A stretch of 64,000 bases of DNA from Eublepharis macularius (taxonomy: Eukaryota; Chordata; Lepidosauria; Squamata; Eublepharidae): assembly GCF_028583425.1 (NCBI RefSeq), contig NC_072795.1, positions 11,245,001 through 11,309,000 of the forward strand. The letters run 5' to 3'. The notes beneath the pieces were generated by a model. That model searched no databases and was not told where the DNA came from. It saw only the letters and a list, made by a program, of their open reading frames with translations. A program made the position numbers and the translations under genes. Of this stretch, positions 14,901 to 64,000 are shown piece by piece (the stretch's first letter is position 1; every line of letters begins with the position of its first letter).

Positions 14901-15207
14901 TATGAGTCCATCTGTCCTTATATCTTGGAGAGTTAAGATGCTAAATGACAATAGCCGGTGAATGACAATAAATGGTGAATGACAATAGCGCTGTGACTGG
15001 GTAGGGTGGGGTATGCAGAGGGGTAGTGAGTGTGGAGAAATCAGCATTGGTAATGAGGCAGAAAGTCTATCCAGTGATTTCAAAAGACTTCAAAGCTCGC
15101 TTATTAGGAGCAGTTCACATCAACTTCAACGGAATTAAATGTTGAATTTATGTTTGCCCTCTTCATTCTCTCTTGTAGGACCTCAAAAAACTTATTCTAG
15201 AAAATGG

Positions 15208-15459
15208 AGCTTGTCAACAAATGAAATTCACATCATTCTATGATCTGGATGAAATACAATCTGCTAATGTTTTTTAAAGTTCTTCCCAAATTTCAGTATC
15301 TTCAAGCTACACTAGAATGAAAAGAATACCAATAGCTTGTCAACAAATGAAATTCACATCATTCTATGATCTGGATGAAATACAATCTGCTAATGTTTTT
15401 TAAAGTTCTTCCCAAATTTCAGTATCTTCAAGCTACACTAGAATGAAAAGAATACCTCT
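15208..15459 (+). repeat. 126-bp tandem duplication in 5S unit 1
   Basis: AGCTTGTCAACAAATGAAAT recurs exactly 126 bp apart (15208 and 15334), and the two halves are almost identical. Unit 2 has one copy, more diverged from each of these than they are from each other. The duplication therefore happened recently, after the two units separated. Confidence 0.85.
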
Positions 15460-15708
15460 TTCCATCAAATTATTGAGTTGTTATAATGAGAACAAGACTT
15501 GGAAAAACATTATGGAAAAGAGTCCATTGAAAGAAGGTGCACCAGCTTTGAACGCCTGGGAGCAAGCGGAGAAGCAAGAAAGCGCAGAAGATGAGAGACG
15601 GGAATTTGGCACGGTAGAGACTAGAGAGCGGATTGCTGACGCCTGCGAAGCAGAACTCGGAGTATTGCTGGGGCTTGATTAAAAGCAGCGGCAGCAGACT
15701 TTTAAAAC

Positions 15709-15829
15709 GTCTACGGCCATACCACCCTGAACGCGCCCGATCTCGTCTGATCTCGGAAGCTAAGCAGGGTCGGGCCCGGTTAGTACTTGGATGGGAGACC
15801 GCCTGGGAATACCGGGTGTTGTAGGCTTT
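15709..15829 (+). rRNA. 5S ribosomal RNA, copy 1
   Basis: 5S rRNA is the RNA polymerase III-made component of the large ribosomal subunit, assembled with uL18 and uL5. From memory of human 5S rRNA, this 121-nt sequence differs at only two places: position 69 (C for U) and position 111 (U for C). The internal promoter is present: the A box around residues 50-64, the intermediate element near 67-72 (which carries the first change) and the C box around 80-97. A TTTTT run follows at the 3' end, the usual pol III terminator. The start was set at GTCTACGGCC. The body is complete and identical to copy 2, so it looks functional. A dispersed, recently made copy that is not transcribed cannot be excluded. 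Confidence 0.95.
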
Positions 15830-15831
15830 TT
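15827..15831 (+). terminator. Pol III T-run terminator of 5S copy 1
   Basis: Five Ts directly follow GTAGGC at the 3' end of the 5S gene, followed by a C/T-rich tract. This fits the oligo(T) termination signal of RNA polymerase III. Confidence 0.75.
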
Positions 15832-16012
15832 CTTCTTCTTTTGGCCTCCAAGTCCGGCTTCATTCTCTTCCTTCTTTCTCTGGCGGAAGCTGCTGCTTCT
15901 TCTCTTTTGCTGTGACTAGCGCCCCAGGGCAATACTTTCTTTTTCGCAAACAACTGCATCATTGGGGGGACTACACTAAAGGACAGCGAGGAATCGCTTA
16001 GGCCACGTCCAC

Positions 16013-16947
16013 TCTGTCTGCACCCTTCCTCCCAACAAAATCTCCCTCCCGTGGGATCCCCAATAGTGATCAGTCATGCTCCGTGTCCTCTCTACGATGG
16101 CGAGGCATGGCTTTCCGCGGTGTGCGGAAGCTATGTAAGGTTGGATCTGGTTAATATCTGGCTGGGATTCTTCCTGGAGATTTTTCCCCCCCGTTTTCCC
16201 ATCAAAATCCTTTGTCCTTCCCTTTTTAGCTCTCCTTGTTTGAGGGCAACTGTTCCTTTCCTTTCATCATGGATTGCACCTTGAAGTATTACTGTCTGTT
16301 CCGAGAAGGACTAGATTTTGTGCCGATCAAGGGACAGTTTTGTCCTCAGATTACTCCTCCCCTCCAACATAAACTCAGTCCTTTCAGGAGTCTTTATTCA
16401 ATGAGACCAAACAGTGATGGATTCGGTCACATCCCTGCACTAAGAGAAGTGTTTCATCATTTACTTAGTTGTTGTTCTTTCTTATTTATGCAAGTTTTTA
16501 GGGGTCCATTTTTATTCCCCATTTTTCCACAAACCTGGTTTTATTATCCAGGGATTTTGCTGAAACCTGTGTTCTGTTTCAGTATGGTCCCATTGCGCAT
16601 AGTTTTTGATCTGTACTATCAGGCAGAGATGGCTCTGAATTTAGGGATATCTCTTAGTAATCTTTGTACTGCAGTATTTGGTAAGTCAGTGCAAATTTAG
16701 AACTCACTTTTTCTGAAACAAATTTGCCAGAATTCTAACAAATTCTCCTTTCTAATCCATGGAAGACTTTCACCAGGAGATGGCGCTGTTCATTCAAATT
16801 TCCCCTGAAAGACGTCACCATAATTGTTAGTTTTTAGGGTGTTTCTGATCTTTCTGGGATTTCCTGTTTGGAAAGATCGGTGTTTTTTTTTGTTGATATC
16901 ATTGTAGTTGACTGTTATTTATTCGGTTATATAGTGAAGAGTCCAGA
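16013..16947. other. Spacer between the two 5S blocks
   Basis: About 935 bp that is not repeated after unit 2. It includes the degenerate 5S-like stretch at its start. A 154-codon open frame (16236-16700) has no recognisable domain, and its hydrophobic runs reflect T-rich DNA. Confidence 0.4.
16091..16190 (+). pseudogene. Degenerate 5S rRNA-like sequence
   Basis: TCTACGATGGCGAGGCATGG is followed by CGGAAGCTATG, TGGATCTGGTTAATATC and TGGCTGGGATTC. These align in order with the 5S start, the A box, the intermediate element and the C box, with a deletion of roughly ten bases and many substitutions. No T-run of the 5S type follows, although TTTTTCCCCCC comes shortly after. It is most simply an old 5S pseudogene between the two intact genes. 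The alignment was done by eye. Confidence 0.5.
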
Positions 16948-17474
16948 AGCATTGGTAATGAGGCAGGGAGTCTATCCAGGTATTTCAAGACTTCAAAGCT
17001 CACTTAGGAGCAGTTCACATCAACTTCAACGGAATTAAATGTTGAGTTTATGTTTGCCCTCTTCACTCTCTTGTAGGACCCCCAAAAACTTGTTCTAGAA
17101 AATGGAGCTTGTCAACAAATGAAATTCACATCATTCTATGATATGGATGAAATACAATTTTTTAAAAAAAGTTCTTCCCAAATTTCGGTAACTTCAAGCT
17201 ACGCTAGAATGAAAAGAATACCTCTTTCCATCAAATTATTGAGTTGTTATGATGAGAACAAGACTCGGAAAAACATCATGGAAAAGGGTCCATTGACAGA
17301 AGGTGCACCAGCTTTGAACGCCTGGGAGCAAGCGGAGAAGCAAGAAAGCGCAGAAGATGAGAGACGGGAATTTGGCACGGTAGAGACTAGAGAGCGGATT
17401 GCTGACGCCTGCGAAGCAGAACTCGGAGTGTTGCTGGGGCTTGATTAAAAGCAGCGGCAGCAGACTTTTAAAAC

Positions 17475-17595
17475 GTCTACGGCCATACCACCCTGAACGC
17501 GCCCGATCTCGTCTGATCTCGGAAGCTAAGCAGGGTCGGGCCCGGTTAGTACTTGGATGGGAGACCGCCTGGGAATACCGGGTGTTGTAGGCTTT
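17475..17595 (+). rRNA. 5S ribosomal RNA, copy 2
   Basis: The same 121-nt sequence as copy 1 with no differences, including the changes at residues 69 and 111 relative to human 5S. The pol III internal control region is complete and a run of five Ts follows. The upstream flank (TTGATTAAAAGCAGCGGCAG and TTTTAAAAC) is also the same as in copy 1 for at least 30 bp, which would preserve any upstream promoter contribution. Confidence 0.95.
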
Positions 17596-17597
17596 TT
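17593..17597 (+). terminator. Pol III T-run terminator of 5S copy 2
   Basis: Five Ts follow GTAGGC directly, as in copy 1. Confidence 0.75.
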
Positions 17598-17809
17598 CTT
17601 CTTCTTTGGCCTCCAAGTCTGGCTTCTTTCTCTTTTCCTTCCTTCTCTGGCGGAAGCTGCTGCTTTCCTTTTGCTGTGACTAGCGCCCCAGGGTGATGCT
17701 TTCTTTTTCTCAAACAACTGCATGTTTGTGTAGTCATTGGGGGACTACACCAAAGGACAGCAAGGAATAGCTTAGGCCACGTACAAGTGCGGTTTTGAGA
17801 ACTGCAGTT

Positions 17810-17935
17810 CTCTTCATCGATCTGACGAAGAGAACTGTGGTTCCTGAAAGCTTATGCTACAAAAAAGTTTGTTAGTCTTAAAGGTGCTACTGGACTCTTT
17901 ACTATATTGCAACTACAGACACTGCTAACTCCTCT
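17810..17935. repeat. Interspersed repeat, GTGTTGGTCTG type (partial)
   Basis: TGACGAAGAGAACTGTGG, AAAGCTTATGCTAC and GTTAGTCTTAAAGGTGCTAC are the inverted-orientation blocks of the dispersed repeat. It abuts the end of 5S unit 2. Confidence 0.6.
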
Positions 17936-20007: not shown

Positions 20008-20209
20008 GAGCCAAGCTACAAGTGATGCCTGCCACAGGTTGGACACTTGTCAGCTGCCCTCAAGTTTTGATGGGAAATGTAGGCGTCCTGGTTTTACATC
20101 TTGGCTCTCCATTACAGCTGCAAGACCAGGATGCCTACGTTTCCCATCAAAACTTGAGGGAAGCTGACAAGTGTCCAACCTGTGGCAGGCGTCACTTGTA
20201 GCTTGGCTC
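20008..20209. mobile_element. Harbinger-like foldback MITE, 202 bp
   Basis: The element starts GAGCCAAGCTACAAGTGA and ends TCACTTGTAGCTTGGCTC. The two halves are almost complete reverse complements, with AGTTTTGATGGGAAATGTAG mirrored in the right arm. TGA flanks each side (20005-20007, 20210-20212). Other copies are at 25960, 33601, 37928, 38165, 39765 and 63564. A duplication of the form TNA suggests PIF/Harbinger. It encodes nothing. Confidence 0.85.
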
Positions 20210-39764: not shown

Positions 39765-39966
39765 GAGCCAAACTACAAGTGACGCCTTACATAGGTTGGA
39801 CACTTGTCAGCTTCCCTCAAGTTTTGATGGGAAATGTAGGCGTCCTGGTTTTACAGCTTGGCTCTCCATTACAGCTGCAAGACCAGGATGCCTACATTTC
39901 CCATCAAAACTTGAGGGAAGCCGACTAGTGTCCAACCTGTGTAAGACGTCACTTGTAGTTTGGCTC
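39765..39966. mobile_element. Harbinger-like foldback MITE, 202 bp
   Basis: GAGCCAAACTACAAGTGACG to CACTTGTAGTTTGGCTC with TCA on each side (39762-39764, 39967-39969). Same length as the copies at 20008 and 63564. Confidence 0.9.
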
Positions 39967-40644: not shown

Positions 40645-41026
40645 TCCTACTATATAAAAGGCAAGCCGTATTGGCAACGACTCACTTTTTACCCTTGCGC
40701 AGGTGCATTGCCAACAACTCTGGCCTCTAGGCCGCTGCAAAGTGCCTGCTTGCTGATGGGAGGCGGCCTGCCGAATCGATGGTCAACTCACTACTCCCTG
40801 TGCCTCCCCTCAAGCCCTCCCACTCTGGCCTCAAGGCCGCTGCAAAGCGCCTGCTTGCTGATGGGAGGGGGCCCGCCAAATCGATGGCCTACACACTCCT
40901 CCCCGTGCCTCCCCTCAAGCTCTCCCACTCTGGCCTCCAGGCCATGTCGAAGTGCCCACTTGCCACCAGAAGGGGGCCTTTCTAGAGCCCGTTGTATTTT
41001 TTTCACACAACAGGCGATGTTGCTAG
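40645..41026 (+). mobile_element. Non-autonomous Helitron, 382 bp
   Basis: It starts TCCTACTATATAAAAGGC directly after an A and ends GATGTTGCTAG directly before a T, as expected for Helitrons (5' TC, 3' CTRR, A/T target). Just before the 3' end is a hairpin, GCCCGTTGT and ACAACAGGC, across a T-rich loop. There is no inverted repeat or target duplication. No RepHel protein is encoded. The interior is made of three 105-bp tandem units, which produce a spurious 137-codon frame. Confidence 0.85.
40718..41000 (+). repeat. 105-bp tandem repeats inside the Helitron
   Basis: CTCTGGCCTC recurs at 40718, 40823 and 40928. Each unit holds GCCGCTGCAAAG, CTTGCTGATGGGAGG and TCGATGG. The third unit is truncated and diverged (GCCATGTCGAAGTGCCC). 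Confidence 0.85.
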
Positions 41027-46904: not shown

Positions 46905-47118
46905 CTGACCTGAATAGCCAAAGTGAGCCTGATCTCGTTGGATCTCAGAAGCTAAGCACGGTCGGCTTTGGTTAGTAATTGAATGGGAGACCTCCAACAA
47001 AGACCAGGGTTGCAGAGGCAGGCAATGGCAAACCACCTCTGATAGTTTCTTGCCATGAAAATCCCACCAGGGGTCGCCATAAGTCAACTCTGACTTAAAG
47101 GCACCACACACACACAGT
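46905..47118 (+). repeat. 5S rRNA-derived SINE, full length
   Basis: The head GAGCCTGATCTCGTTGGATC, TCAGAAGCTAAGCACGG and GGTTAGTAATTGAATGGGAG aligns along 5S rRNA, keeping the A box and C box of its internal promoter. Then follow GGCAATGGCAAACCACCTC and a Bov-B tail, GGGGTCGCCATAAGTC, with CA repeats. The head is well diverged from the intact 5S genes at 15.7 and 17.5 kb, so it was not derived from them locally. Confidence 0.85.
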
Positions 47119-63489: not shown

Positions 63490-64000
63490 GAAAATGAAAA
63501 TAGAATTCATTGCCAGAGGACATAACAATGGCCACAGGCATAGATGCCTTTAAAAGAGCCTTAGAGCCAAGCTACAAGTGACGCCTGACACAGGTTGGAC
63601 ACTTGTCAGCTTCCCTCAAGTTTTGATGGGAAATGTAGGCGTCCTGGTCTTGCGGCTGTAATGGAGAGCCAAGCTGTAAAACCAGGACGCCTACATTTCC
63701 CATCAAAACTTGAGGGAAGCTGACAAGTGTCCAACCTGTGTCAGGCATCACTTGTAGCTTGGCTCTCAGATAGAGTCATGGAGGAGAGGTCTAACAGTGA
63801 AGACTAGACATGGTGACTAAGGGGAACCTCCATGTTCAGAGGCAGTAAACTTCTGCATGCCAGTGCCAGGAGGCAACCCCAGGGGAAGGCCTCAGCCTCT
63901 GTGCCCTGTGGTTGGCCCTTCATAGTAACTGGTTGGCTGCCATGTGAGACAGGACATTGGACTAGATGGACCACTAGACTGATCCAGCAAGGCTTATATA
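63490..64000 (+). repeat. Dispersed GTGGAATTCAC-type repeat, interrupted by a MITE
   Basis: AGAATTCATTGCCAGAGG and GATGCCTTTAAAAGAGCC precede the MITE at 63564. AACCTCCATGTTCAGAGGC and GACTAGATGGACCACTAGAC follow it, running to the window end. Relatives are at 8900, 13130 and 58855. Confidence 0.65.
63564..63765. mobile_element. Harbinger-like foldback MITE, 202 bp
   Basis: GAGCCAAGCTACAAGTGACG to CACTTGTAGCTTGGCTC. TTA precedes and TCA follows, so the 3-bp duplication has one mismatch. It splits the repeat at 63490. Confidence 0.85.

Follow-up and report, generated by a model that had tools for sequence, protein, structure and literature searches.

Two sequence types of 5S rRNA gene have been described in zebrafish and in frogs, and these systems, as presented in the accessible portions of the papers cited here, are the closest to the locus reported below. 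In zebrafish, 2330 maternal-type genes are listed against 12 of the somatic type (PMC5513064). The somatic type is located on chromosome 18 (12 genes, or 14 in a later ChIP count) with one further gene on chromosome 8 (PMC5513064, PMC12953832), and its genes are separated by long intergenic regions (PMC12953832). For Xenopus, 20,000 oocyte and 400 somatic 5S copies are stated in PMC5513064. The type I genes of Engystomops, likely to be active, display a TATA box 25 bp upstream, a C at -1 and a T-rich end (PMC3342222). No report of two 5S types in a squamate was found in a non-exhaustive literature search, and no literature was found under the name '5S-Sauria'.

The DNA analysed in this work, hereafter the window, is a stretch of 64,000 nucleotides from the gecko Eublepharis macularius (assembly GCF_028583425.1, contig NC_072795.1, positions 11,245,001 to 11,309,000 of the forward strand). 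Searching the 64-kb window with Rfam returned two matches to RF00001, at 15709-15827 and 17475-17593, each covering model positions 1-120 and scoring 111.4 bits against a curated cut-off of 38 bits (Table 1). The initial annotation had described two 5S genes alike base for base and about 1.77 kb apart, and both statements hold: all 121 nucleotides are the same and the genes are 1,766 bp apart. The 34 consensus base pairs that could be compared are all standard. Upstream of the genes, a TATA-like TTAAAA is found at -30 and a C at -1. The pair does not resemble retropseudogenes, as 183 bp of upstream sequence is common to both members with 2 substitutions; a check for target-site duplications gave flank repeats of 5 and 4 bp only as the longest around the two genes. 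When Rfam matches were accepted at E up to 1, 39 were obtained in the window and all except the two 5S genes remained under the gathering score; most of these sub-threshold matches, which involve microRNA models, are taken here as palindromic repeats. Three such palindromic repeats, at 63611-63718, 39813-39918 and 20059-20158, perhaps belong to a short DNA transposon family. A 105-bp tandem repeat is present in 2.2 to 2.5 copies at 40717-40978. The exact 5S pattern had no match in the viral contig set and none in the genome contig set, and Pfam applied to five reading frames gave a single weak zf-RVT match, under the cut-off.

Table 1. Features of the 5S locus, in window coordinates
Feature	Position	Strand	Remarks
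5S rRNA gene copy A	15709..15829	+	T2, G25, C69, T111; RF00001 111.4 bits; 34/34 pairs standard
5S rRNA gene copy B	17475..17595	+	identical to copy A; RF00001 111.4 bits
T-run, pol III terminator-like, end of gene A	15827..15831	+	read from sequence
T-run, pol III terminator-like, end of gene B	17593..17597	+	read from sequence
Upstream part of homogenised tract, block A	15532..15708	+	TTAAAA at -30, C at -1, CpG-rich
Upstream part of homogenised tract, block B	17298..17474	+	only A and B match here among 40 scored places
Duplicated block A	15043..16011	+	holds gene copy A
Duplicated block B	16948..17785	+	holds gene copy B
Exact 126-bp tandem duplication, block A only	15208..15456	+	–
Spacer between blocks, 936 bp	16012..16947	.	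1 place in genome search; no other match in window
Decayed 5S fragment	16125..16177	+	agrees with gene positions 46-98 at 38/53 sites; SINE tail looked for beside it and not found

Each gene is carried by one of two duplicated blocks. The 126-bp tandem duplication noted initially is indeed exact and restricted to block A. The right-hand edge had been described as broken by a dispersed repeat; the first dispersed-repeat match (defined as sequence matched elsewhere within the window) occurs at 17820, 35 bp past the end of block B. No further 5S unit was found on either side of the pair within the window. The decayed 5S fragment located between the two genes, in the same orientation, scores 46, a value not approached in 2000 shuffles, which reached 35 at most, and is perhaps an older unit. 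Its assignment to a SINE was considered and dropped, as no tail was found nearby and it scores 46 against the gene and 40, 30 and 20 against three SINE copies; the fragment is short and this choice is not firm. The three 5S-derived SINE copies of the window, at 46918-47110 (+), 54394-54226 (-) and about 19775-19641 (-), have a common tail, which is presumably Bov-B-like, as would be in keeping with a squamate; a tail-only match is present at 44937-44882 and a short 5S-like piece alone at 22151-22117 (-).

The divergence of the two blocks was measured by aligning block A, minus one tandem copy, to block B (826 columns, 39 substitutions). The substitutions are distributed unevenly: 22 in 344 columns far upstream, 2 in 183 between -183 and -1, none in the 121 of the gene and 15 in 178 downstream. 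The shared flanks had been described as differing at many sites, which is correct for the far upstream and downstream parts and does not apply to the near upstream region. The best low-divergence tract extends over 322 columns, from -177 to about +146 (by alignment, 15532-15854 in A and 17298-17619 in B), and includes a single substitution, at -45, compared with 38 in the 504 columns outside. This contrast was matched in none of 200 shuffles, and a run equally long with at most one mismatch in none of 20000. The contrast between identical genes and divergent flanks is thus real and its border falls outside the gene. The gene and the near upstream region do not differ in rate (0/121 versus 2/183, Fisher p 0.52). 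Since the tract spans about 177 bp upstream and these two rates are alike, homogenisation fits better than selection acting on the RNA alone. Of the two causes proposed initially, gene conversion or purifying selection, these data favour the former, in the form of a recent event that homogenised the promoter together with the gene, rather than selection confined to the RNA. The observed/expected CpG ratio is 0.91 from -183 to -1 and 0.32 window-wide; the CpG sites from -183 through the gene are common to both blocks in 21 of 21 cases. In the outer flanks, which display a Jukes-Cantor (JC) divergence of 7.4%, this holds for 4 of 12. Such retained CpGs fit an unmethylated, active promoter, and a recent conversion would look the same.

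The search was extended to the 2.24-Gb assembly, composed of 72 contigs in which some stretches read N. The best 47 of 140,816 first-look candidates for 5S were scored, and the window pair ranks first among them, alone at 111.4 bits. A 329-bp promoter-plus-gene query, in which the gene starts at query position 184, gave 793 candidates; among the best 40 that were scored, the promoter is matched at two places, the window copies themselves, the other 38 matches beginning at query position 183 or later. Within the searchable assembly the pair therefore does not form a tandem 5S rDNA array, with two units, outer flanks about 7% apart, a promoter at 2 of 40 scored places and a spacer found at one place, and the initial view of a mini-cluster as opposed to a long array is upheld to the limit of that assembly. 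Among the 39 candidates scored out of 34,498, only two places matched the ribosomal 5.8S sequence, so that rDNA arrays seem poorly represented in the assembly; these two matches, L095 and L096, are located on different contigs and differ from each other by a few bases.

Sixty-three other 5S-like loci were collected from these searches, namely the 45 remaining matches of the 5S search (L003-L047) and 18 further ones from the promoter-plus-gene search (L076-L093). They are mostly retrocopies or 5S-derived SINEs. Twenty-nine of them start at transcript position 4 or before, 9 at positions 5-19 and 25 at position 20 or later; a SINE-tail motif is found in 18 of the latter, the rest of the 25 being left unclassed. 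Target-site duplications of at least 7 bp accompany 18 of the 29 start-reaching copies, compared with 1.4% when flanks are swapped between loci, and the start-reaching copies are accordingly separate retropositions. Thirteen of the 29 end at positions 81-92, like the mammalian tailless 5S retropseudogenes described in part in PMC5322556.

These loci point to another 5S sequence, C2/A25/T69/C111, hereafter the major type, which is four bases apart from the T2/G25/C69/T111 of the window pair. Aligned to a major-type reference and counting letters present, the 63 loci display C2 in 24/24, A25 in 38/40 (T in 2), T69 in 59/63 (G in 4) and C111 in 39/41 (T in 2); SINE-like copies have a common ancestry and are not independent counts. 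An unmasked reference can hide end mismatches, and the four sites were therefore masked in a recount of the 29 start-reaching copies, which gave C2 in 24/27 (T in 2, G in 1), A25 in 27/28 (T in 1), T69 in 28/29 (G in 1) and C111 in 14/17 (T in 2, A in 1). The window-type letter C69 occurs in none of the 63 loci and G25 in none of the 40 reaching position 25. When scored against both types, 58 loci are nearer the major type, 4 tie and one, the SINE-like L032, is nearer the window type; retrocopies of the window type were sought among these 63 loci only. Three of the differing positions, 2, 25 and 111, have partners in the RNA (117, 52 and 8, respectively); for position 69 the predicted fold gives 106 as partner, and the Rfam consensus leaves it unpaired. 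The pairing-neutral character of the four differences was considered as a sign of selection and discarded as uninformative, as no pair is lost in 86 of 119 single transitions, of which 45 retain or create a pair and 41 affect unpaired sites. Relative to the human 5S sequence, positions 69 and 111 would be the sole differences of the window type, and positions 2 and 25 those of the major type.

The initial annotation had named a main array differing at residues 69 and 111 as one half of the evidence that would count against its reading. The retrocopies do carry T69 and C111, together with C2 and A25, but no such array was found. With up to 2 mismatches allowed, a query made of the major type's 63-nt 3' half hit 8 places, of which L020 is exact, two are the window genes and the other five belong to the 63 loci; a major-type array is found neither among these 8 places nor among the best 47 of 140,816 and the best 40 of 793 candidates, and no intact major-type gene was found among the 3'-half matches or the 40 scored promoter-plus-gene places. 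This lack is weak evidence of absence. Fluorescence in situ hybridisation in the Hokou gecko places the 5S signal at one chromosome pair site, according to the accessible part of PMC4524605, and two genes would hardly yield such a signal. As far as sequence can tell, the retrocopies point against the window pair being the main 5S genes.

The retrocopies also permit a rough dating. Three copies, selected as the nearest to the major type out of 63, display 0/78, 0/93 and 1/100 non-CpG differences from it (1/271 in total); the closest, L020, is truncated at its 5' end and lacks positions 2 and 25. As these copies are nearly unchanged and the block flanks have diverged by the 7.4% given above, the major type would, provided that the flanks evolve neutrally, still have been abundant in the germ line once the two blocks had separated. 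Major-type RNA thus appears to have been abundant there until fairly recently. If the closest copies are as old as the point estimate, four changes would have arisen in that time with a chance of 0.001; at the upper bound on their age the chance is 0.15, which leaves room for a recent turnover of the 5S type. What the retrocopies date is the major RNA, not the present-day genome.

The window pair is probably a small homogenised locus made of two complete 5S genes of a second, minor type, and two kinds of 5S RNA gene probably exist in the animal or did so until recently. An older tandem duplication would have produced the two blocks; the tract would have been homogenised afterwards by gene conversion, with selection on the promoter and the RNA contributing. 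Both copies may be transcribed by pol III, and the bulk of germline 5S RNA would originate, now or until recently, from the C2/A25/T69/C111 type, the array of which would be missing from the searchable sequence. The pair might instead be the collapsed or shrunken main array, in which case the present 5S RNA would be window-type and the retrocopies would preserve one that has since been replaced. We hold this to be unlikely: the pair does top the 47 scored matches, alone at its score, and the genome searches revealed no other array, but a single spacer copy and outer flanks about 7% apart are unlike neighbouring units of an active array, no additional unit flanks the pair within the window, and the closest retrocopies belong to the other type. 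It is quite improbable that the genes are a silent orphon escaped from an array, with a recent conversion as the sole cause of their likeness, given that every compared base pair is standard (34/34), that the TATA-like element, the C at -1 and the T-run have all been kept and that all 21 CpG sites are common to both copies. Likeness between silent copies can, however, also result from a recent conversion, and the existence of just two copies with a decayed third fragment in between, as well as the lack of C69 at the 63 other loci, would suit such an origin.

Selection on the RNA and promoter, operating without conversion, could by itself keep the tract identical, an account compatible with the other readings. 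According to the accessible part of PMC3342222, elements upstream of the 5S genes of other vertebrates are conserved and have a regulatory role, and the near upstream region of the window genes is CpG-rich. However, the 132 positions from -177 to -46 are all unchanged, for which the chance at the flank rate is 6e-5, and this stretch lies farther out than the TATA box of type I frog genes, at 25 bp, and than their TATA-like element, placed another 12-13 bp upstream, as given in the same source. The one change of the tract, moreover, sits nearer the gene, at -45. Selection alone is in our opinion an unlikely cause. An assembly artefact, with the two genes polished into a single sequence or a tandem duplication that is not real, would suit the exactness of the 126-bp repeat and the length of the tract, which is close to that of a short-read insert. 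Bulk 5S reads would, however, have imposed the four major-type bases, none of which is present in either gene, and one substitution survives at -45; an artefact is very improbable. The reading favoured here remains the homogenised minor-type locus.

A more specific form of that reading is a developmental two-type system in a reptile, with a two-gene somatic-type locus and an unassembled germline or oocyte-type array as the source of the retrocopies; judged from the sequence, it is put forward tentatively and is less likely than not. If true, it would represent an oocyte/somatic 5S switch in an amniote. Tetrapods are reported with a single gtf3a gene (PMC6991959, in the part available), so that a dual system in reptiles would have to do without a second TFIIIA gene. 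Should the pair be expressed, this squamate would have more than one 5S RNA sequence, and the ribosomes of germ line and body could differ, as in zebrafish and frogs. In any case, retropseudogenes provide a fossil record of the germline-abundant 5S RNA even when the array is missing from an assembly.

The locus can be compared to the described systems, again as far as the accessible portions of the sources extend. The tailless 5S retropseudogenes of PMC5322556 fit many of the other loci, with their beginnings at the transcript start, their target-site duplications and the 13 of 29 endings mentioned above, and differ from the window pair, whose members have a common upstream region. With the Engystomops type I genes, the window genes have in common a TATA-like element, here at -30, a C at -1 and a T-run at the gene end. 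In these frogs the two types were obtained as cloned repeat units, whereas the other type is known here from retrocopies alone. The likeness to Xenopus resides in a pair of sequence types whose copy numbers differ greatly, although the minor type there still comprises hundreds of copies of known expression, compared with two genes known as sequence in the gecko. In zebrafish, stage-specific expression has been shown, whereas the gecko pair is known from its sequence, the other type is deduced from retrocopies, and only four bases separate the window and major types, set against the zebrafish types. The zebrafish somatic genes nevertheless offer a likeness in organisation: a small locus with a long spacer, existing beside a type of very high copy number, just as two genes would exist here beside an apparently germline-abundant one.
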